From: Chryseosolibacter histidinae
Lineage (GTDB): Bacteria > Bacteroidota > Bacteroidia > Cytophagales > Cyclobacteriaceae
Length of the DNA stretch: 64,000 nt
Direction of reading: 5' to 3'
Assembly: GCF_018598225.1 (NCBI RefSeq)
Contig: NZ_JAHESF010000005.1
Span: forward strand, 186,001 to 250,000
The notes under the pieces are model-generated. The model was given only the letters and a program-made list of their open reading frames with translations. It was not told where the DNA came from and made no database searches. Positions 4,248-50,075 of this stretch are shown in pieces (the first letter of the stretch is position 1; each line of letters opens with the position of its first letter). The position numbers were made by a program, and so were the translations under genes.

Positions 4248-4682
4248 ATGCGCAGGTCTGTTTACATGCTGGCAATCATGATCAGTGTGGTGTACCTCTC
4301 CGGTTGTGATGGCGGCGACGAGCCCGGTGCGCAGGAGATCTTTATGGACAAGCTCGCAGGATCATGGACCCTGCGCAGCGGAAGAGTTACGGTAAATGAT
4401 GTGGACGTAACAGGCGCATTCAAAGAACTCGCGATCACCTTTAATAAAGATATGAGCTATAACGTAACGAACCCGGCGGCATCGCTCTGGCCCCAATCCG
4501 GAAGCTTTACACTGCAACCCTCTGATGCGGACGCGCTGTTCAATATCGTACGCGACGATAACGTTGTGGTGGCTGTCAAAGAGCTTACCGCCACAACGGT
4601 GACCCTGGCGATGCAGTACGCTCCTCCCGGGGGACGTGTTAAAAGTGTTGGCGGTCAGTATGTATTCAAGATGAACCGGTAG
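4248..4682 (+). CDS. Putative lipoprotein, lipocalin-like
   Basis: Small lipoprotein of unknown function. From Met 4248 the protein begins MRRSVYMLAI and reaches a lipobox LSGC with the Cys at residue 20, a normal length for a lipoprotein signal. Starts at 4188, 4218 or 4221 are open too, but 4188 falls inside a terminator hairpin. The body has the pattern seen in Bacteroidota lipocalin-like proteins: an early GSWTLRSG strand, then alternating strands, ending in GGQYVFKMN. Probably faces the periplasm on a membrane anchor. No partner can be named. Confidence 0.75.
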   Translation: MRRSVYMLAIMISVVYLSGCDGGDEPGAQEIFMDKLAGSWTLRSGRVTVNDVDVTGAFKELAITFNKDMSYNVTNPAASLWPQSGSFTLQPSDADALFNIVRDDNVVVAVKELTATTVTLAMQYAPPGGRVKSVGGQYVFKMNR

Positions 4683-43658: not shown

Positions 43659-46600
43659 TCACCTGAAATTCCTTCCCTCGTGGAAGATCTTTCCCTGAAT
43701 GATCTCCACTTCGCCAGCCTGTGGTTTCTTCAAAAATGGAGAAGTGGTTTCGTCCGCGCGCGACATTGGTTTCAAAGACAGATCTTCTCCGTTTGTCTCT
43801 GTGAGCTGACGCAGCAGCCTGGACAAATTATGACAACGCTTCACCACCACGTGGATCACTTCACCCTCGCGCTGCAGCTGCCCTTCTACCATCAGCAGCT
43901 TTGATTGTATGATCTCCTTACGGTATTGGTTGAACAGGCTTTGAAATACCACCAGGTTGGCACTGCCTGTTTCATCTTCAATGGTGATGAAGCAGATGCC
44001 GCTGGCGGTGCCGGGCCGTTGGCGTACCAGCACAAGGCCCGCAACTTTTACACGGTCTCCGTCTTTGGCGTCAGCCAGCTTTGACAGGGGCAGCACATGA
44101 AGTCGGTCCAGCTGCTCTCTCACAAAGCTCACCGGGTGTGCTTTGAGCGAAAGCGATGTGGTGGCATAATCATACACAACATGCTCTCCCTGCGTCATGG
44201 GAGGAAGCATGATTTTCTCAGCGGCGGCATCTTTGGATTGCTGGCCCGTGAAAAGTGCTTTGGGATGGTCTTTGGTGGATACTTCCCACAACGCCTGCCG
44301 GCGGTCGAGGCCGATGGACCTGAAAGCATCTGCATCGGCTAATCTTTCGAGTACGGTGTCTGGCAGCGCCAGGTCGCGAAGCTGGCGAATGGATGTATAC
44401 CCGTCTTTTCTGCCGTTCACCAGTATCTTCATGTCGTCTTCACGAAGGCCTTTTACCTGCCTGAAGCCCAAACGAACGGCGCAGTATTTACCATTCTTTT
44501 CTTCTAACTGGTTTTCCCAGTCAGCATAATTGATATCCACGGGACGAACTTCCACGCCATGTTTTTTTGCATCGATAATGATCTGCGCGGGCTGGTAAAA
44601 ACCCATAGGCATACTGTTGAGCAGGGCGCAGGCAAAAACATCGGGATAATAACACTTGAGCCACGATGACACATACACCAGAAGGGCAAAGCTCACGGCA
44701 TGGCTTTCGGGGAAACCGTAAGAGCCAAAGCCTTCAAGCTGCTTAAAGACCCGCCGGGCATAATCTTCTTTGTAACCGTTTTTGATCATGCCGCTGATGA
44801 GCTTGTCTTCAAAATAGGAGACTTTTCCTTTTGCCTTGAAGGTGGCCATGCTGCGGCGAAGCTCATCTGCTTCGGTCGGCGTAAACCCTGCAGCGACAAT
44901 GGCTATCTGCATGGCCTGCTCCTGGAACAACGGAACGCCTAATGTTCTTTTTAGTATCTCTTCAAGTTTTTTGGAAGGATATTCCACATCCTCTTCTTTA
45001 TTACGCCGGCGAAGATAAGGATGCACCATATCCCCCTGTATAGGCCCGGGACGCACAATAGCTACCTCGATCACCAAATCATAAAAACAATTCGGCCTGA
45101 GCCGTGGCAGCATCGACATCTGCGCCCGGCTTTCGATCTGGAATACGCCTATGGTATCGGCATGACTTATCATTTCATAAACCTCACGAACATCCTGCGG
45201 AATGTTGGCCAGCGTAAGATGGCGGCCGTGATGTTTTTTGGCGAGGTCAAAAGCCTTGCGGATGCAGGTGAGCATGCCCAATGCCAGCACGTCGATCTTC
45301 AGAAAACCGAGGGCTTCAATATCGTCTTTATTCCATTCAATACACGTGCGGTCCTCCATACGTGCATTCAAAATGGGGCAAAGGTCCGACAGCTTGCCTT
45401 GGGTGATCACAAAGCCACCGGTGTGCTGCCCGAGCTGACGCGGAAAGCCCATGAACTGTGCCGTGAGCTCCAGCACTTTTTTGATGGTGGGGTCATCCGG
45501 GTTTATTCCCTGGCTGATGATCCTGGCCCTGTCGAAACCTTCATCGGCAAAGTCCCAGATGAGCCCGGCGAGTCGATTGATGGTATCAACGGAGAGGCCC
45601 ATCGCTTTGCCTACATCCCTGATGGCCCCCTTGTGGTGCTGCTGGGTAACGGTGGCAACGATGGCCGCCCTGTCACGACCATATTTTTTAAAGATATATT
45701 GCATCACCTCTTCACGGCGCTCGTGCTCGAAGTCTACATCTATATCCGGAGGCTCGTTGCGCGCGGAAGAAATGAAGCGTTCAAACAATAAGTCAAATTT
45801 TGATGGATCTACAGAAGTGATTCCCAGGCAATAACAGACCGTGGAGTTTGCTGCCGATCCGCGCCCCTGGCAAAGAATGCCTTGCTTCCGCGCATACCTT
45901 ACAATATCATGGACAGTAAGAAAATATTCAGCATAGTTCTTCTGCTCCACAAAGGCCAGCTCATACAGAATGGAATTTTTGATCTTTTCAGGTATTGCTG
46001 CACCATAGATCTCTCGCGCTCCCTGCCAGGTGAGAAACGTTAGCTCTTCCTGCGGCGTGCGGCCATCGGTGGTGAGCTCTTTCGGATATGTGTATTTTAA
46101 TTCCTGGAGGGAGAACTGGCAGGCATCTGCAATTTCCTCTGTACGCGCTATTGCATCGGGGTATTGCCTGAAGAGGCGGATCATTTCGTTGTTGGGCTTC
46201 AGGTAACGCTCGGCGTTGGGATGGAGCCGGAACCCTGCTGTATGAATGGTGCATTTCTCCCGTACACAGGTAACAACATCCTGCAGCTCTCGGCGCAGGG
46301 GATGATGATAGTGCACGTCATTCGTAGCCACCATCGGTATTTGCAACGCTGCCGATAGTTGCCAGATCCGATGCAATAGCTTGGCGTCATCACCATTGTA
46401 TGCGCGTGAGGCCGCCAGGTAAAGGTGCTTGCCAAAAGTATCGCGATATTCTTCTAGCGCTTCTTTGAAGTCGGTGCCGAAGTCGAACATTTCATCCAGT
46501 GTGGCTGGTGGCAGTACAATGAACTTTGATCCCTGCGCATGCTGGTATACATCGGCTTTGTATAAATGGCATTCCCCTTTTTCGGCGCGCAGGTTGCCCG

Positions 46601-46880
46601 TGGTAAGCAATGCCGATATGCGCGCGTAAGCTTCAACATCGGTAGGGAAGGCCAGCAGGCTCGGACCATCCAGCAGATCGAGACGACATGCCGGGATAAT
46701 GCGTATGCCCAGCTTTTTCGCGGTAACATGCCCGCGCACAATTCCGGCAAAACTGTTGCGGTCTGTGATGGCGATCGCTGTATAACCATACGCTGCAGCC
46801 TGCTCCACAAGCTCTTCAGGATGCGAAGCGCCGCGCAGAAAACTGAAATTGGTGGTAACCTGTAACTCCGTGTACTGCAT
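43659..46880 (-). CDS. dnaE2: Error-prone DNA polymerase DnaE2 (ImuC)
   Basis: 1073-residue C-family polymerase of the translesion type. The PHP domain is at residues 1-250 (QVTTNFSFLRGASHPEELVE). The catalytic motif NEPPDIDVDFEH is near residue 383; the palm continues with GRGSAANSTVCYCLGIT. The thumb, fingers and HhH follow (AVSFALLVYVSSWLKCYYPD). A C-terminal OB fold (VAGLVLVRQRPGTASGICFI) completes it. It is shorter than replicative DnaE and lies with imuA-imuB, so it is the mutasome polymerase that extends past lesions. Last gene of the operon, 11 bases after imuB. Confidence 0.96.
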   Translation of the reverse strand: MQYTELQVTTNFSFLRGASHPEELVEQAAAYGYTAIAITDRNSFAGIVRGHVTAKKLGIRIIPACRLDLLDGPSLLAFPTDVEAYARISALLTTGNLRAEKGECHLYKADVYQHAQGSKFIVLPPATLDEMFDFGTDFKEALEEYRDTFGKHLYLAASRAYNGDDAKLLHRIWQLSAALQIPMVATNDVHYHHPLRRELQDVVTCVREKCTIHTAGFRLHPNAERYLKPNNEMIRLFRQYPDAIARTEEIADACQFSLQELKYTYPKELTTDGRTPQEELTFLTWQGAREIYGAAIPEKIKNSILYELAFVEQKNYAEYFLTVHDIVRYARKQGILCQGRGSAANSTVCYCLGITSVDPSKFDLLFERFISSARNEPPDIDVDFEHERREEVMQYIFKKYGRDRAAIVATVTQQHHKGAIRDVGKAMGLSVDTINRLAGLIWDFADEGFDRARIISQGINPDDPTIKKVLELTAQFMGFPRQLGQHTGGFVITQGKLSDLCPILNARMEDRTCIEWNKDDIEALGFLKIDVLALGMLTCIRKAFDLAKKHHGRHLTLANIPQDVREVYEMISHADTIGVFQIESRAQMSMLPRLRPNCFYDLVIEVAIVRPGPIQGDMVHPYLRRRNKEEDVEYPSKKLEEILKRTLGVPLFQEQAMQIAIVAAGFTPTEADELRRSMATFKAKGKVSYFEDKLISGMIKNGYKEDYARRVFKQLEGFGSYGFPESHAVSFALLVYVSSWLKCYYPDVFACALLNSMPMGFYQPAQIIIDAKKHGVEVRPVDINYADWENQLEEKNGKYCAVRLGFRQVKGLREDDMKILVNGRKDGYTSIRQLRDLALPDTVLERLADADAFRSIGLDRRQALWEVSTKDHPKALFTGQQSKDAAAEKIMLPPMTQGEHVVYDYATTSLSLKAHPVSFVREQLDRLHVLPLSKLADAKDGDRVKVAGLVLVRQRPGTASGICFITIEDETGSANLVVFQSLFNQYRKEIIQSKLLMVEGQLQREGEVIHVVVKRCHNLSRLLRQLTETNGEDLSLKPMSRADETTSPFLKKPQAGEVEIIQGKIFHEGRNFR

Positions 46881-46891
46881 ATCTCACTTCG

Positions 46892-48385
46892 TTAAGAAAA
46901 AAATCCGTGAAGGAACCACTGATATGTTTTATCATCGTAATGCCCGAGCCGGAACAGCCAGTACCGGCGCCCTTCTTCATCTTCAACGTGATAATAGTCG
47001 CGATGCTGACCTTGCTGCAGCCACCATTCCTGCTCGATGCGTTCGGGGCCATCAGCTTTCACGATCTTGTGCACCTTTCCCTGATGCCTGAACAGCATCG
47101 GCGGATAATCGGGTATCGGGGCGCTAACCTCGATCTTTTCAGGCACCGCTAAAAGTTGAATCGGGCGAAGCTTGTCTCTCCAAATGGTGGTGGGTTTCTC
47201 CTGGAGCGATGCAGCGGGTTTAAATGATCGCTCGGGCCAGTAATGTTCCGTAGGCAGATAACGGTGGATAGACTCTGCGCCTATCTTGCCTGCCAATCGA
47301 TCGAGCAGCTCTGACAGTCGCTCATCTTCCAGTCCACCGCCGCCTTCCCACAACTTGTCCTGCCGTGGAAAGTGATCTTCCACCTTAATCGCTTCCAGCT
47401 GGAACAGCTCAATGCCCAGCGCCGGCTCGAGCGTAGGCAGCTTAATCTCGAACAATTTGAAAAGATGCTTCACATTATGCGAGGGGCGACTGGTGGCGAT
47501 GTCTGCCTGCACTACTTTTCCATCTACACGATAACCTTTGAAGACTGCTGCACGCAGTCCCTTGTATTCATTGCGCAGCCGCAGGCATAATGTTTCGAGC
47601 AATTGCTGCAAGGCTATTTCTATTGCTGTTGCCGTAGTCACCGGCTCGAGGCAAGGCAACCGTTCCTGGTAAGGCTCCAGGGGCTGCACGGGCTGGATCG
47701 GTTCTTCTTCATGGCCGAGAGCCTGATCCAGGCGCATAATGAAGTGTTGGCCGAAACGACGCCTGAGCGAGGCGCGTGGCATTTGAATAAACTGGTTGAT
47801 GCGCCGAAGCCCGAGCTTGTGTAAACGTTCAACAACTTCCGCCTCCAGGCGCAGTGCCTCGGGTGGCAAGGGCAGCACCGCTTCAATATGCCGGCCACTG
47901 TCAATCACAAGCGGTTCTTTTCCAAAACGCGCCACAGCCCACGCGGCTCCCGGTGTATCGGCTATTGCCGCACGAACATCGTAGCCGCGTATGTTCAATC
48001 GCCTGACGATATCGGCGAGATAAGGTGCATCTCCGCCCCAAAGGTGCGCGCATCCTGTAACATCCAGCAGAAGGCCATCGGGGAGATCAACTGCAGCGAG
48101 GGGTGTGAACCGGATGCACCATTCAGCAAGGCGTTTGAGTAATTTACCGGCAAGGTCCGGCATGTCGTCAAGCACTTCCAGGTCGGGAACAAAAGCTCTC
48201 GCATCAGCCAACGCCATGCCTGCGTGCACACCTTTGATCTGGGCACAGGCATTGGCAGCCATAACCATCATTCTTCCTTGCACAGGCGCGCGCAGTACAA
48301 AAGGCATCACACGAAGCTGAGGCCGGCGGAGGGTGAACCAGTCCGTAGCCAGGTGACGGAACCATATCGAAACAAAGCGCCGCAT
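46892..48385 (-). CDS. imuB: ImuB, Y-family polymerase-like mutasome hub
   Basis: 497 residues of the DinB/Y-family fold (FVSIWFRHLATDWFTLRRPQ, LLLDVTGCAHLWGGDAPYLA, YDVRAAIADTPGAAWAVARF). The catalytic acidic residues of active Y polymerases are absent: the YSIDE-type motif reads AVDLPDGLLLDV and the first Asp is not conserved. As in known ImuB proteins, it is probably not a polymerase but a hub that links ImuA, DnaE2 and the beta clamp. It starts six bases after imuA. Confidence 0.94.
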   Translation of the reverse strand: MRRFVSIWFRHLATDWFTLRRPQLRVMPFVLRAPVQGRMMVMAANACAQIKGVHAGMALADARAFVPDLEVLDDMPDLAGKLLKRLAEWCIRFTPLAAVDLPDGLLLDVTGCAHLWGGDAPYLADIVRRLNIRGYDVRAAIADTPGAAWAVARFGKEPLVIDSGRHIEAVLPLPPEALRLEAEVVERLHKLGLRRINQFIQMPRASLRRRFGQHFIMRLDQALGHEEEPIQPVQPLEPYQERLPCLEPVTTATAIEIALQQLLETLCLRLRNEYKGLRAAVFKGYRVDGKVVQADIATSRPSHNVKHLFKLFEIKLPTLEPALGIELFQLEAIKVEDHFPRQDKLWEGGGGLEDERLSELLDRLAGKIGAESIHRYLPTEHYWPERSFKPAASLQEKPTTIWRDKLRPIQLLAVPEKIEVSAPIPDYPPMLFRHQGKVHKIVKADGPERIEQEWWLQQGQHRDYYHVEDEEGRRYWLFRLGHYDDKTYQWFLHGFFS

Positions 48386-48391
48386 ACATCA

Positions 48392-49129
48392 TCATCCTGC
48401 TTTCTTTTTCTGTTCGTGGAAGAAAGGAGGCAGCTTGTAAACAGGCCTGAATGCTCCGCGCTCCCACATGAGGTTCCAGGCACCAGGCCTGCCGTTCCTG
48501 ACGCGCAGCAGCTCAACCTGCCAGTGCGGAAAACCAACACCGGGCAGATCGTCAATGGGCTCACTGGCAAGGGAGGTGATCTTCCAGCGCGTGACACAGG
48601 CTGTAGTGCCTACGTTGCCTGCACCGCGCCTCAGAACAAAACCTGTTGCCCGGCTCTGCTCAACGGCCAGCTGAAGCCGCCGCGATGCCGTGAAGCTTAG
48701 ATCATGCACTTCACCCACCACCGCTGCCAGCGCGCCACATTTCAGCGCTTCATCCATCGCCCACAAAGCATCTTTCTCTCTTTTTACATCGATGAATATG
48801 AACTGGTCAGGCGCTATACCAAAATTTTTTAAAGCAGGCGGAAAGAGCGTTCGGGAAGTACTGATCCAGAGCGACGTTCCGCCGCTGCGCATCAAAGGAG
48901 CAAGCAGGCCTGCAATAAAACCGCTGGTAACAGCAGCATTTTCAGCTGTGGGTGATAAAAACTCATGTACAGCGCCCAATGGAAATGAAGCATTCGGAAA
49001 AGCATCTTTCACAGGTCCGAGTCCCAGATCTACGGCCGCGCTGTTCAATGGCCTGAAGCCCTGCAAAAGAAGGATTTCATTTTGCAGTTGTGAACGCATA
49101 TCCACCTTATTTGAAACCAGCGCAGCCAT
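48392..49129 (-). CDS. imuA: ImuA, RecA-like mutasome accessory protein
   Basis: 245 residues with a RecA-like core. Recognisable segments are LGAVHEFLSPTAENAAVTSG, SLWISTSRTLFPPALKNFGI and ALKCGALAAVVGEVHDLSFT, as in ImuA proteins of Bacteroidota. No intact Walker A motif is visible. It is first in the imuA-imuB-dnaE2 operon and probably helps the mutasome interact with RecA at stalled forks. The promoter region with a double palindrome lies 50-100 bases upstream. Confidence 0.92.
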   Translation of the reverse strand: MAALVSNKVDMRSQLQNEILLLQGFRPLNSAAVDLGLGPVKDAFPNASFPLGAVHEFLSPTAENAAVTSGFIAGLLAPLMRSGGTSLWISTSRTLFPPALKNFGIAPDQFIFIDVKREKDALWAMDEALKCGALAAVVGEVHDLSFTASRRLQLAVEQSRATGFVLRRGAGNVGTTACVTRWKITSLASEPIDDLPGVGFPHWQVELLRVRNGRPGAWNLMWERGAFRPVYKLPPFFHEQKKKAG

Positions 49130-49175
49130 TGTTCCATTCCCTTCCGATAATCCATTGGGTCTTGAATTATTTTTA

Positions 49176-49183
49176 CAAATATA
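49176..49183 (-). promoter_or_regulatory. -7 promoter element of imuA operon
   Basis: On the minus strand TATATTTG matches TAnnTTTG, 47 bases before the imuA start codon. The first palindrome begins nine bases upstream of it, so a protein bound there would cover the -10 to -35 spacer. Confidence 0.5.
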
Positions 49184-49191
49184 GTATGTTT

Positions 49192-49208
49192 AACTAATAT
49201 TGTTAGTT
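49192..49208. promoter_or_regulatory. Candidate SOS operator, site 1
   Basis: AACTAATATTGTTAGTT, a perfect AACTAA-N5-TTAGTT palindrome. An identical half-site arrangement recurs at 49215-49231, 23 bases further on, a spacing of about two helix turns that allows cooperative dimers on one face. Confidence 0.6.
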
Positions 49209-49214
49209 TATAAA

Positions 49215-49231
49215 AACTAAATAAATTAGTT
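49215..49231. promoter_or_regulatory. Candidate SOS operator, site 2
   Basis: AACTAAATAAATTAGTT, the second AACTAA-N5-TTAGTT palindrome. It ends four bases before the plus-strand promoter element at 49235. Both divergent promoters could thus be controlled from one double operator. Confidence 0.6.
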
Positions 49232-49234
49232 GTG

Positions 49235-49242
49235 TAATTTTG
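49235..49242 (+). promoter_or_regulatory. -7 promoter element of the divergent membrane protein gene
   Basis: TAATTTTG matches TAnnTTTG on the plus strand. The gene at 49332 would have a leader of about 80 bases. It lies beside operator site 2. Confidence 0.45.
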
Positions 49243-49331
49243 AGCTGCGGAGTAGTTTTAGCGGGCAGAAGGCTTTTTAAAGTGGAAACTGATATCTTTA
49301 ACACTATAATTTTAACCCCTAAACTAACACT

Positions 49332-49751
49332 ATGCGAGATCTCATGCTGATGGTTCACTTTATTGGTTTGTCGATGGCCTTGGGTACGGGCTTCGCCAAC
49401 CTCTTTCTGAGTATGGCTGCCGCCAAGCTTGAACCTGCCGAACGTGGCCCCTTTATGTTCAGAACCCTGGTACTGATCCGCATGGGCCACATAGGTCTTG
49501 GGTTGCTGCTGATCTCAGGATTTTATCTCATCACACCATTTTGGAAAATACTGGGACACATGCCCACGCTGATTGCCAAGCTGTGTTTTGTAACACTTCT
49601 CGTGATACTGGTTTCCATCATCACCGTCATCGCCAAAAAAGCGCAACGACAGAACAACCCGGCCATGCTCGCCAGGCTCAAACCGTTTGGCATGCTTAAT
49701 TTTTTTGTGGGCTTCACCATTGTAGTGCTGGCAGTATTGTCATTTCACTAG
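49332..49751 (+). CDS. Small four-helix membrane protein, divergent from the mutasome operon
   Basis: 139 residues with four hydrophobic helices (DLMLMVHFIGLSMALGTGFA, LIRMGHIGLGLLLISGFYLI, TLIAKLCFVTLLVILVSIIT, FGMLNFFVGFTIVVLAVLSF). The first helix has a His in a position like that of DUF2269/CopD-type heme or copper proteins, but the match is weak and no function is assigned. It shares a promoter region and double operator with imuA, so it may be co-induced by DNA damage. Confidence 0.75.
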   Translation: MRDLMLMVHFIGLSMALGTGFANLFLSMAAAKLEPAERGPFMFRTLVLIRMGHIGLGLLLISGFYLITPFWKILGHMPTLIAKLCFVTLLVILVSIITVIAKKAQRQNNPAMLARLKPFGMLNFFVGFTIVVLAVLSFH

Positions 49752-49778: not shown

Positions 49779-50075
49779 ATGGATAAAAAATATTTCGCAC
49801 TATACCTCCTTCCTTCACGGCCCGACTTTGCCCAAACAATGACCGATGAAGAACGGGCCATTATGATGAAACATGTGGGCTACTGGACTGACCTTATGAA
49901 CAAAGGCAAGGTGGTGGCGTTTGGCCCGGTGTTGGACCCGAAAGAAGTTTATGGTCTGGGAATTATTGCCGTGGACAGTGAACAGGAAGTAAAGGACTTT
50001 ATAACCAATGACCCGGCAGCAAAAATTAACCGGTACGAGTACTTTCCAATGAAAGCAGTCGTACCGGCTAAGTAG
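49779..50075 (+). CDS. YciI-like family protein
   Basis: 98-residue alpha-beta barrel protein. The family pattern is visible: KYFALYLLPSRPDFAQTMTD, EERAIMMKHVGYWTDLMNKG, KVVAFGPVLDPKEVYGLGII, and SEQEVKDFITNDPAAKINRY. The His in MKHVGYW and Asp in VLDP are likely active-site residues. It follows the membrane protein gene by 27 bases and probably shares its transcript. Exact reaction unknown. Confidence 0.85.
   Translation: MDKKYFALYLLPSRPDFAQTMTDEERAIMMKHVGYWTDLMNKGKVVAFGPVLDPKEVYGLGIIAVDSEQEVKDFITNDPAAKINRYEYFPMKAVVPAK

Follow-up and report, generated by a model that had tools for sequence, protein, structure and literature searches.

Paired CTAA-N5-TTAG sites upstream of the imuA-imuB-dnaE2 operon of Chryseosolibacter histidinae: very probably an SOS operator of an already published kind

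In the 64,000-nt stretch of the Chryseosolibacter histidinae genome analyzed here (the window), two palindromes are located between imuA, whose start codon is at 49129 on the minus strand, and the divergent gene that begins at 49332, which raises the question as to which regulator binds them and which of the flanking genes it controls. The features of the locus are the following:

43659-46880, minus strand: dnaE2 (error-prone PolIII alpha), with PolIII-alpha domains
46892-48385, minus strand: imuB (Y-family-like), with an IMS domain
48392-49129, minus strand: imuA, by its operon position and the NCBIfam ImuA profile (E 1.7e-19; 70.5 bits, below the cut-off of 150)
49176-49183, minus strand: TATATTTG, candidate Bacteroidota -7 element of the imuA promoter
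49192-49208, no strand: operator 1, AACTAA-TATTG-TTAGTT, with its CTAA-N5-TTAG core at 49194-49206, adjoining the imuA -7 box
49215-49231, no strand: operator 2, AACTAA-ATAAA-TTAGTT, with its core at 49217-49229, adjoining the plus-strand TAATTTTG
49235-49242, plus strand: TAATTTTG, candidate -7 element of the divergent gene 49332
49332-49751, plus strand: small membrane protein with weak CopD similarity, below cut-off; regulon membership not supported
49779-50075, plus strand: YCII-domain (YciI-like) protein, 3' of the 49332 gene; regulon membership not supported

The names imuA, imuB and dnaE2 are backed by the order of the genes in the operon. A previous sequence-only reading had described two perfect palindromes with common half-sites and an N5 spacer, flanked by a minus-strand and a plus-strand promoter box, and these elements were all confirmed: both 17-mers are perfect, and TATATTTG and TAATTTTG are the sole TAnnTTTG matches within 49101-49340. 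The 23 bases which were said to separate the palindromes correspond to the distance between their centers, the gap between the two 17-mers amounting to 6 bases. The boxes are called candidate -7 elements on the basis of TAnnTTTG, which we take to be the Bacteroidota -7 promoter consensus. With up to two mismatches, AACTAA-N5-TTAGTT occurs twice in the window, versus a shuffle mean of 1.68 (50 of 100 shuffles reach 2); this count is not significant, and the weight rests on both sites being perfect.

The CTAA-N5-TTAG palindrome found at imuA is one of the two SOS motifs of the Bacteroidetes described in the main-text passages of Sanchez-Osuna et al. (2021; PMC8565304), where it is bound by a phage-type HTH-S24 repressor, the "non-canonical LexA". 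According to these passages, the CTAA/TTAG dyads and the spacer length proved to be necessary in EMSA and the bases adjacent to the dyads did not, sites are predicted for imuA-imuB-dnaE2, among other genes, in several species, and in other Bacteroidetes the motif is bound and such genes are induced by damage (PMC8565304). Because the core, the repressor type and the target class match those published, the window site is regarded as a new instance of this operator: the pair is a functional-looking SOS operator of an already known kind, and the motif itself is not new. The opinion that the SOS operators of Bacteroidota are poorly described is no longer tenable, the motif and this class of targets having been published in 2021 (PMC8565304).

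A repressor of this type is encoded in the same genome. A single match with Peptidase_S24 was obtained at E 0.001 or better, in a protein which also carries HTH_3 (G000 C28:37673-38452) and which has the Ala-Gly cleavage site and the Ser and Lys residues; these positions align across 30 LexA-like proteins (the retrieved part of the matches), apart from a Ser-Gly in L121. The protein scores only 24.7 bits with the canonical LexA profile TIGR00498, as compared with a cut-off of 110.95. Its gene (lexA) is divergent from dinB, with an operator pair between them, and the motif was likewise found upstream of a radical-SAM gene. The six exact pairs present in the genome are the following, with their center-to-center spacing:

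22 bp: C45, upstream of a 125-aa gene
23 bp: imuA, mutasome operon
23 bp: upstream of a radical-SAM gene, read as SplB-like (Pfam shows Radical_SAM only)
33 bp: lexA/dinB, intergenic
33 bp: C80, upstream of a two-gene unit, the second product of which is a distant member of the 125-aa family
34 bp: C41, flanked on one side by a fragment of the 125-aa family and on the other by the start of a gene for an unknown 430-aa protein

In this 8.04-Mb genome, the signal is the pairing of the sites and not the frequency of the motif. The perfect 17-mer occurs five times, versus once for the backward control and about 0.5 times expected from base composition; the 15-mer ACTAA-N5-TTAGT (6 sites vs 10 for the backward control) and the 13-mer core (28 sites vs 91 for the control and about 125 expected from composition) are not enriched. 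On the other hand, six pairs of core sites within 60 bp were observed versus 0.006 expected for 28 random sites. These pairs, which comprise 12 of the 28 core sites, are all intergenic and have AT-rich spacers, whereas 13 of the 16 single sites are inside script-predicted ORFs, the three others being L035, L042, and L044. The first of these, a lone intergenic CTAAATATTTTAG around position 2005 of L035 (G000 C21:136454), has a fully AT spacer and is possibly a seventh, unpaired operator. Degenerate pairs (up to three mismatches) at spacings of 33 and 23 bp gave 6 and 7 extra places versus 28 and 41 in the backward controls and, being fewer than these, were taken to be chance matches and not further targets in this genome; one of these places overlaps the C41 pair.

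Short AT-rich palindromes are a generic operator shape, and the sites might be bound by a regulator of another family (MarR/TetR/HxlR-like) and not by the SOS repressor. This is highly improbable, given the exact match with the EMSA-tested motif (PMC8565304) and the position of the other pairs before lexA/dinB, the radical-SAM gene and the 125-aa family, the neighbors of which in some relatives are SRAP genes, an ATP-dependent ligase or imuA. Control of imuA-imuB-dnaE2 by the HTH-S24 repressor via a double SOS operator is the reading we retain with high confidence, on the strength of the sequence data. The search for the motif before SOS genes, which had been proposed as a check, was successful in the case of the lexA/dinB pair and not in that of recA: the recA gene of this genome has no exact core site within 1.5 kb upstream and no site with one mismatch within 200 bp, and exact core sites were found at 4 of the 20 recA loci searched, including this one. 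The main lexA orthologues have an exact upstream site in 11 out of 21 cases; at the 10 others (L106, L107, L109, L111-L117) it is absent, and a search for palindromes in the upstream regions without CTAA sites gave nothing consistent.

The conservation of the motif upstream of imuA was assessed in the taxonomic family of the window, where 21 of 148 genomes, including this one, gave an ImuA match. Exact core sites precede imuA at 13 of these 21 loci (at one of them, L018, they precede a 123-aa gene that lies upstream of imuA), and exact pairs at 22, 23 or 32 bp occur at 9. In a draw of 395 genomes from the phylum, ImuA was matched in 10, two of which belong to the same family; outside the family, an exact core site is present at all nine imuA loci (8 genomes), within 90 bp of the match start at seven loci and at 338 and 350 bp at the two others. 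The motif is widely kept before imuA, apart from the 8 family loci without it. Past the proximal exact core site, a TAnnTTTG follows at 2-10 nt in 10 of 19 imuA upstream regions and is absent from this interval in the 9 others; the 19 are the 22 loci with a site minus L018, L151, and L154, where the sites are more than 330 bp upstream.

The 8 family loci where the core site is absent (L024-L026, L028, L029, L031-L033) show another palindrome. A perfect TTTGACA-N7-TGTCAAA occurs at five of them, TGACA-N7-TGTCA was read by eye at L028, and L032 and L033 have a degenerate form only. At seven of these loci, imuA and a LexA paralogue, 43-46% identical to the LexA of the window genome, are divergently arranged; G138, the eighth genome, has its paralogue elsewhere, with TTGACA-N7-TGTCAA upstream of it. 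The recognition-helix region of the paralogues also differs from that of the main LexA in the alignment. Among four paralogues submitted to Pfam, all have the HTH, and S24 is below the cut-off in three and gave no match in the fourth. These sequence features look like operator switching after LexA duplication, and such switching events are described for other families in the passages of PMC8565304. At L030, another LexA-like gene (HTH + S24) is divergent from imuA, yet the CTAA sites have been kept.

The divergent membrane protein and YciI-like genes had been assigned to the same regulon, and conservation lends no support to this assignment: within the 1.5-kb imuA flanks of 20 relatives, neither gene turned up, and the membrane protein was matched elsewhere in 3 of the 20, none with CTAA-N5-TTAG upstream. 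The operators might nevertheless act both ways, with both genes being true SOS genes in this species, since the core of operator 2 is followed after 5 nt by TAATTTTG, an offset identical to that at the imuA promoter of relative L014, and no other exact TAnnTTTG occurs between TAATTTTG and gene 49332. Near-miss promoters (last base A), read by eye, are nearer to this gene, however, and together with the absence of both genes from the imuA flanks and the site-less homologues they make this reading rather unlikely. In this one genome, 49332 may be repressed locally, since TAATTTTG abuts operator 2.

The spacing of the operators was compared across the loci retrieved, which contain 42 distinct exact pairs with no more than 110 bp between their sites; as many of these pairs belong to homologous promoters, they do not amount to 42 independent cases. 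The spacings are 33 bp (15 pairs), 22 (9), 34 (5), 23 (3), 24 (3), and 53 (2), while 19, 31, 32, 61, and 95 bp occur once each. At 22-24, 31-34 or 53 bp, 39 of the 42 pairs correspond to about two, three or five helical turns, the exceptions being those at 19, 61, and 95 bp, and no pair is spaced at 25-30 or 35-52 bp. In the six promoters of this genome, the broad in-phase window gives p 0.003 and a narrow one a much smaller value, both windows having been picked post hoc. The lambda CI operators OR and OL are made up of sites of 17 bp, with centers about 23-24 bp apart, and are bound by cooperative pairs. The pairs described here resemble them in their phage-type HTH + S24 repressor, the size and spacing of their operators and their helical phase, and differ from them in that a spacing of 33-34 bp is also common and that the targets are chromosomal SOS genes; the phasing makes it probable that two repressor dimers bind cooperatively on one face of the DNA, as in lambda CI. 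The paired sites might also be independent, their 22/33-bp spacing reflecting inheritance and promoter geometry, since homology links the pairs upstream of the lexA orthologues (33 bp for 8 of the 10 exact ones, 53 bp for the other 2) and, largely, also those of imuA. Six promoters of a single genome sharing two phases, three of them near members of the 125-aa family, the empty intervals among the 42 pairs and the in-phase test with its post hoc window all argue against independence, which we regard as plausible while tending to doubt it.

Half of the six tandem operators of this genome, as it happens, are at members of this family, in a full-length (C45), divergent (C80) or fragmentary (C41) form. 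The C45 gene (L054 1501-1875 = G000 C45:111871-112245, minus strand) has the C45 pair upstream; the second C80 product is a 112-aa distant member (E 1.6e-7), and the C41 pair is beside a family fragment (E 1.4e-19). The 125-aa family was detected at E 0.001 in 10 of the 148 genomes, all of them among the 21 having imuA (4 of 84 genera; genus-level chance 1e-4). An exact core site is present upstream of 20 of the 22 family matches, the two without it being L072 and L075. L075 is apparently a chance match within another gene. A named-genome search, based on a closer subset of the sequences, gave 15 family loci (partly the same places as the 22), all 15 with an exact upstream site, within 130 bp at 14 of them and at 452 bp at L137, the second gene of a unit. 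The hosts include Chryseolinea, Chryseosolibacter, Pseudochryseolinea, other Cytophagales records, and one MAG labelled Chitinophaga. At these loci (L054, L055-L074, L127-L141), the operators are mostly tandem and the neighbors include imuA-imuB (L018/L138), SRAP genes (L068, L072), and an ATP-dependent ligase; up to three family matches occur per related genome, and once the family gene is the first of the imuA operon. In several genomes, a gene of about 92-105 aa is next 3' of the 125-aa gene (4373-4651 in both L127 and L128, and similar cases), and that of L127 gave no Pfam or PADLOC match. Two members of 224-228 aa (L062 1501-2187 and L072 1501-2175, gene orientation), about twice the usual length, may correspond to two tandem copies.

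No significant library match was obtained for the family when the C45 protein was compared with Pfam, NCBIfam, and PHROGs, 13 relatives with Pfam and two members with PADLOC, the best E being 0.0075 or worse and all below the curated cut-offs where given. The AlphaFold model of L127 with 13 sequences reached a pLDDT of 91 and a pTM of 0.83 (the single-sequence model was poor, with a pLDDT of 66) and matched no entry of PDB or BFVD at this threshold of E 0.001 or better. We call the family undescribed because of this lack of library matches and because no paper naming both Chryseolinea and SOS was present among the matches listed. The stem "cooperat" is absent from the main text of PMC8565304, the main-text passages mention neither helical phasing of pairs nor the 125-aa family, and no report on cooperative or phased tandem LexA operators in Bacteroidetes was found, judging by titles and abstracts, which suggests that the phased spacing of the pairs and the operator-bearing family go beyond what is in print as far as found. 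We propose that the family may act as a damage checkpoint specific to this lineage or as an accessory factor of the mutasome. The broader view that phage-type LexA reads phased pairs cooperatively in this Cytophagales lineage, and that this orphan-fold family, rather than the classical repair genes, is the commonest SOS target by operator number, is put forward tentatively, at close to even confidence.

The present analysis contributes the sites, the repressor gene, its catalytic residues, the conservation and the phasing. In the mechanism proposed, the HTH-S24 repressor would bind each CTAA-N5-TTAG as a dimer, and since the promoter of imuA adjoins operator 1 and the one facing the other way adjoins operator 2, imuA-imuB-dnaE2 would be kept off; the operators being two helical turns apart, the two dimers would probably lie on one face and cooperate. 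Upon DNA damage, RecA filaments would cause the repressor to cleave itself at Ala-Gly and leave, and the mutagenic operon would be expressed. The system resembles the Bacteroidetes regulon of PMC8565304, as given in its main-text passages, in the core and spacer, the HTH-S24 repressor, autoregulation, the lexA-like, dinB, splB, and imuA-imuB-dnaE2 targets, and the presence of more than one site at several promoters, and differs from it in that the recA of this genome has no site. With the canonical LexA boxes it shares a cleavable S24 repressor acting on error-prone polymerase genes, whereas its repressor differs in the N-terminal domain and the motif. The 8 imuA and 10 lexA loci without sites, the lack of motif enrichment and the site-less recA count against the SOS reading; the published motif, the repressor gene, the lexA/dinB and radical-SAM pairs and the conservation at imuA make the SOS-type operator claimed at the outset very probable. 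In this organism, the mutagenic ImuA-ImuB-DnaE2 operon would in this way come under a defined SOS switch, the SOS regulon is suggested to be small and built of paired operators, and a concrete protein family is named as a candidate SOS effector in a phylum where the SOS repressor was first described in 2021.
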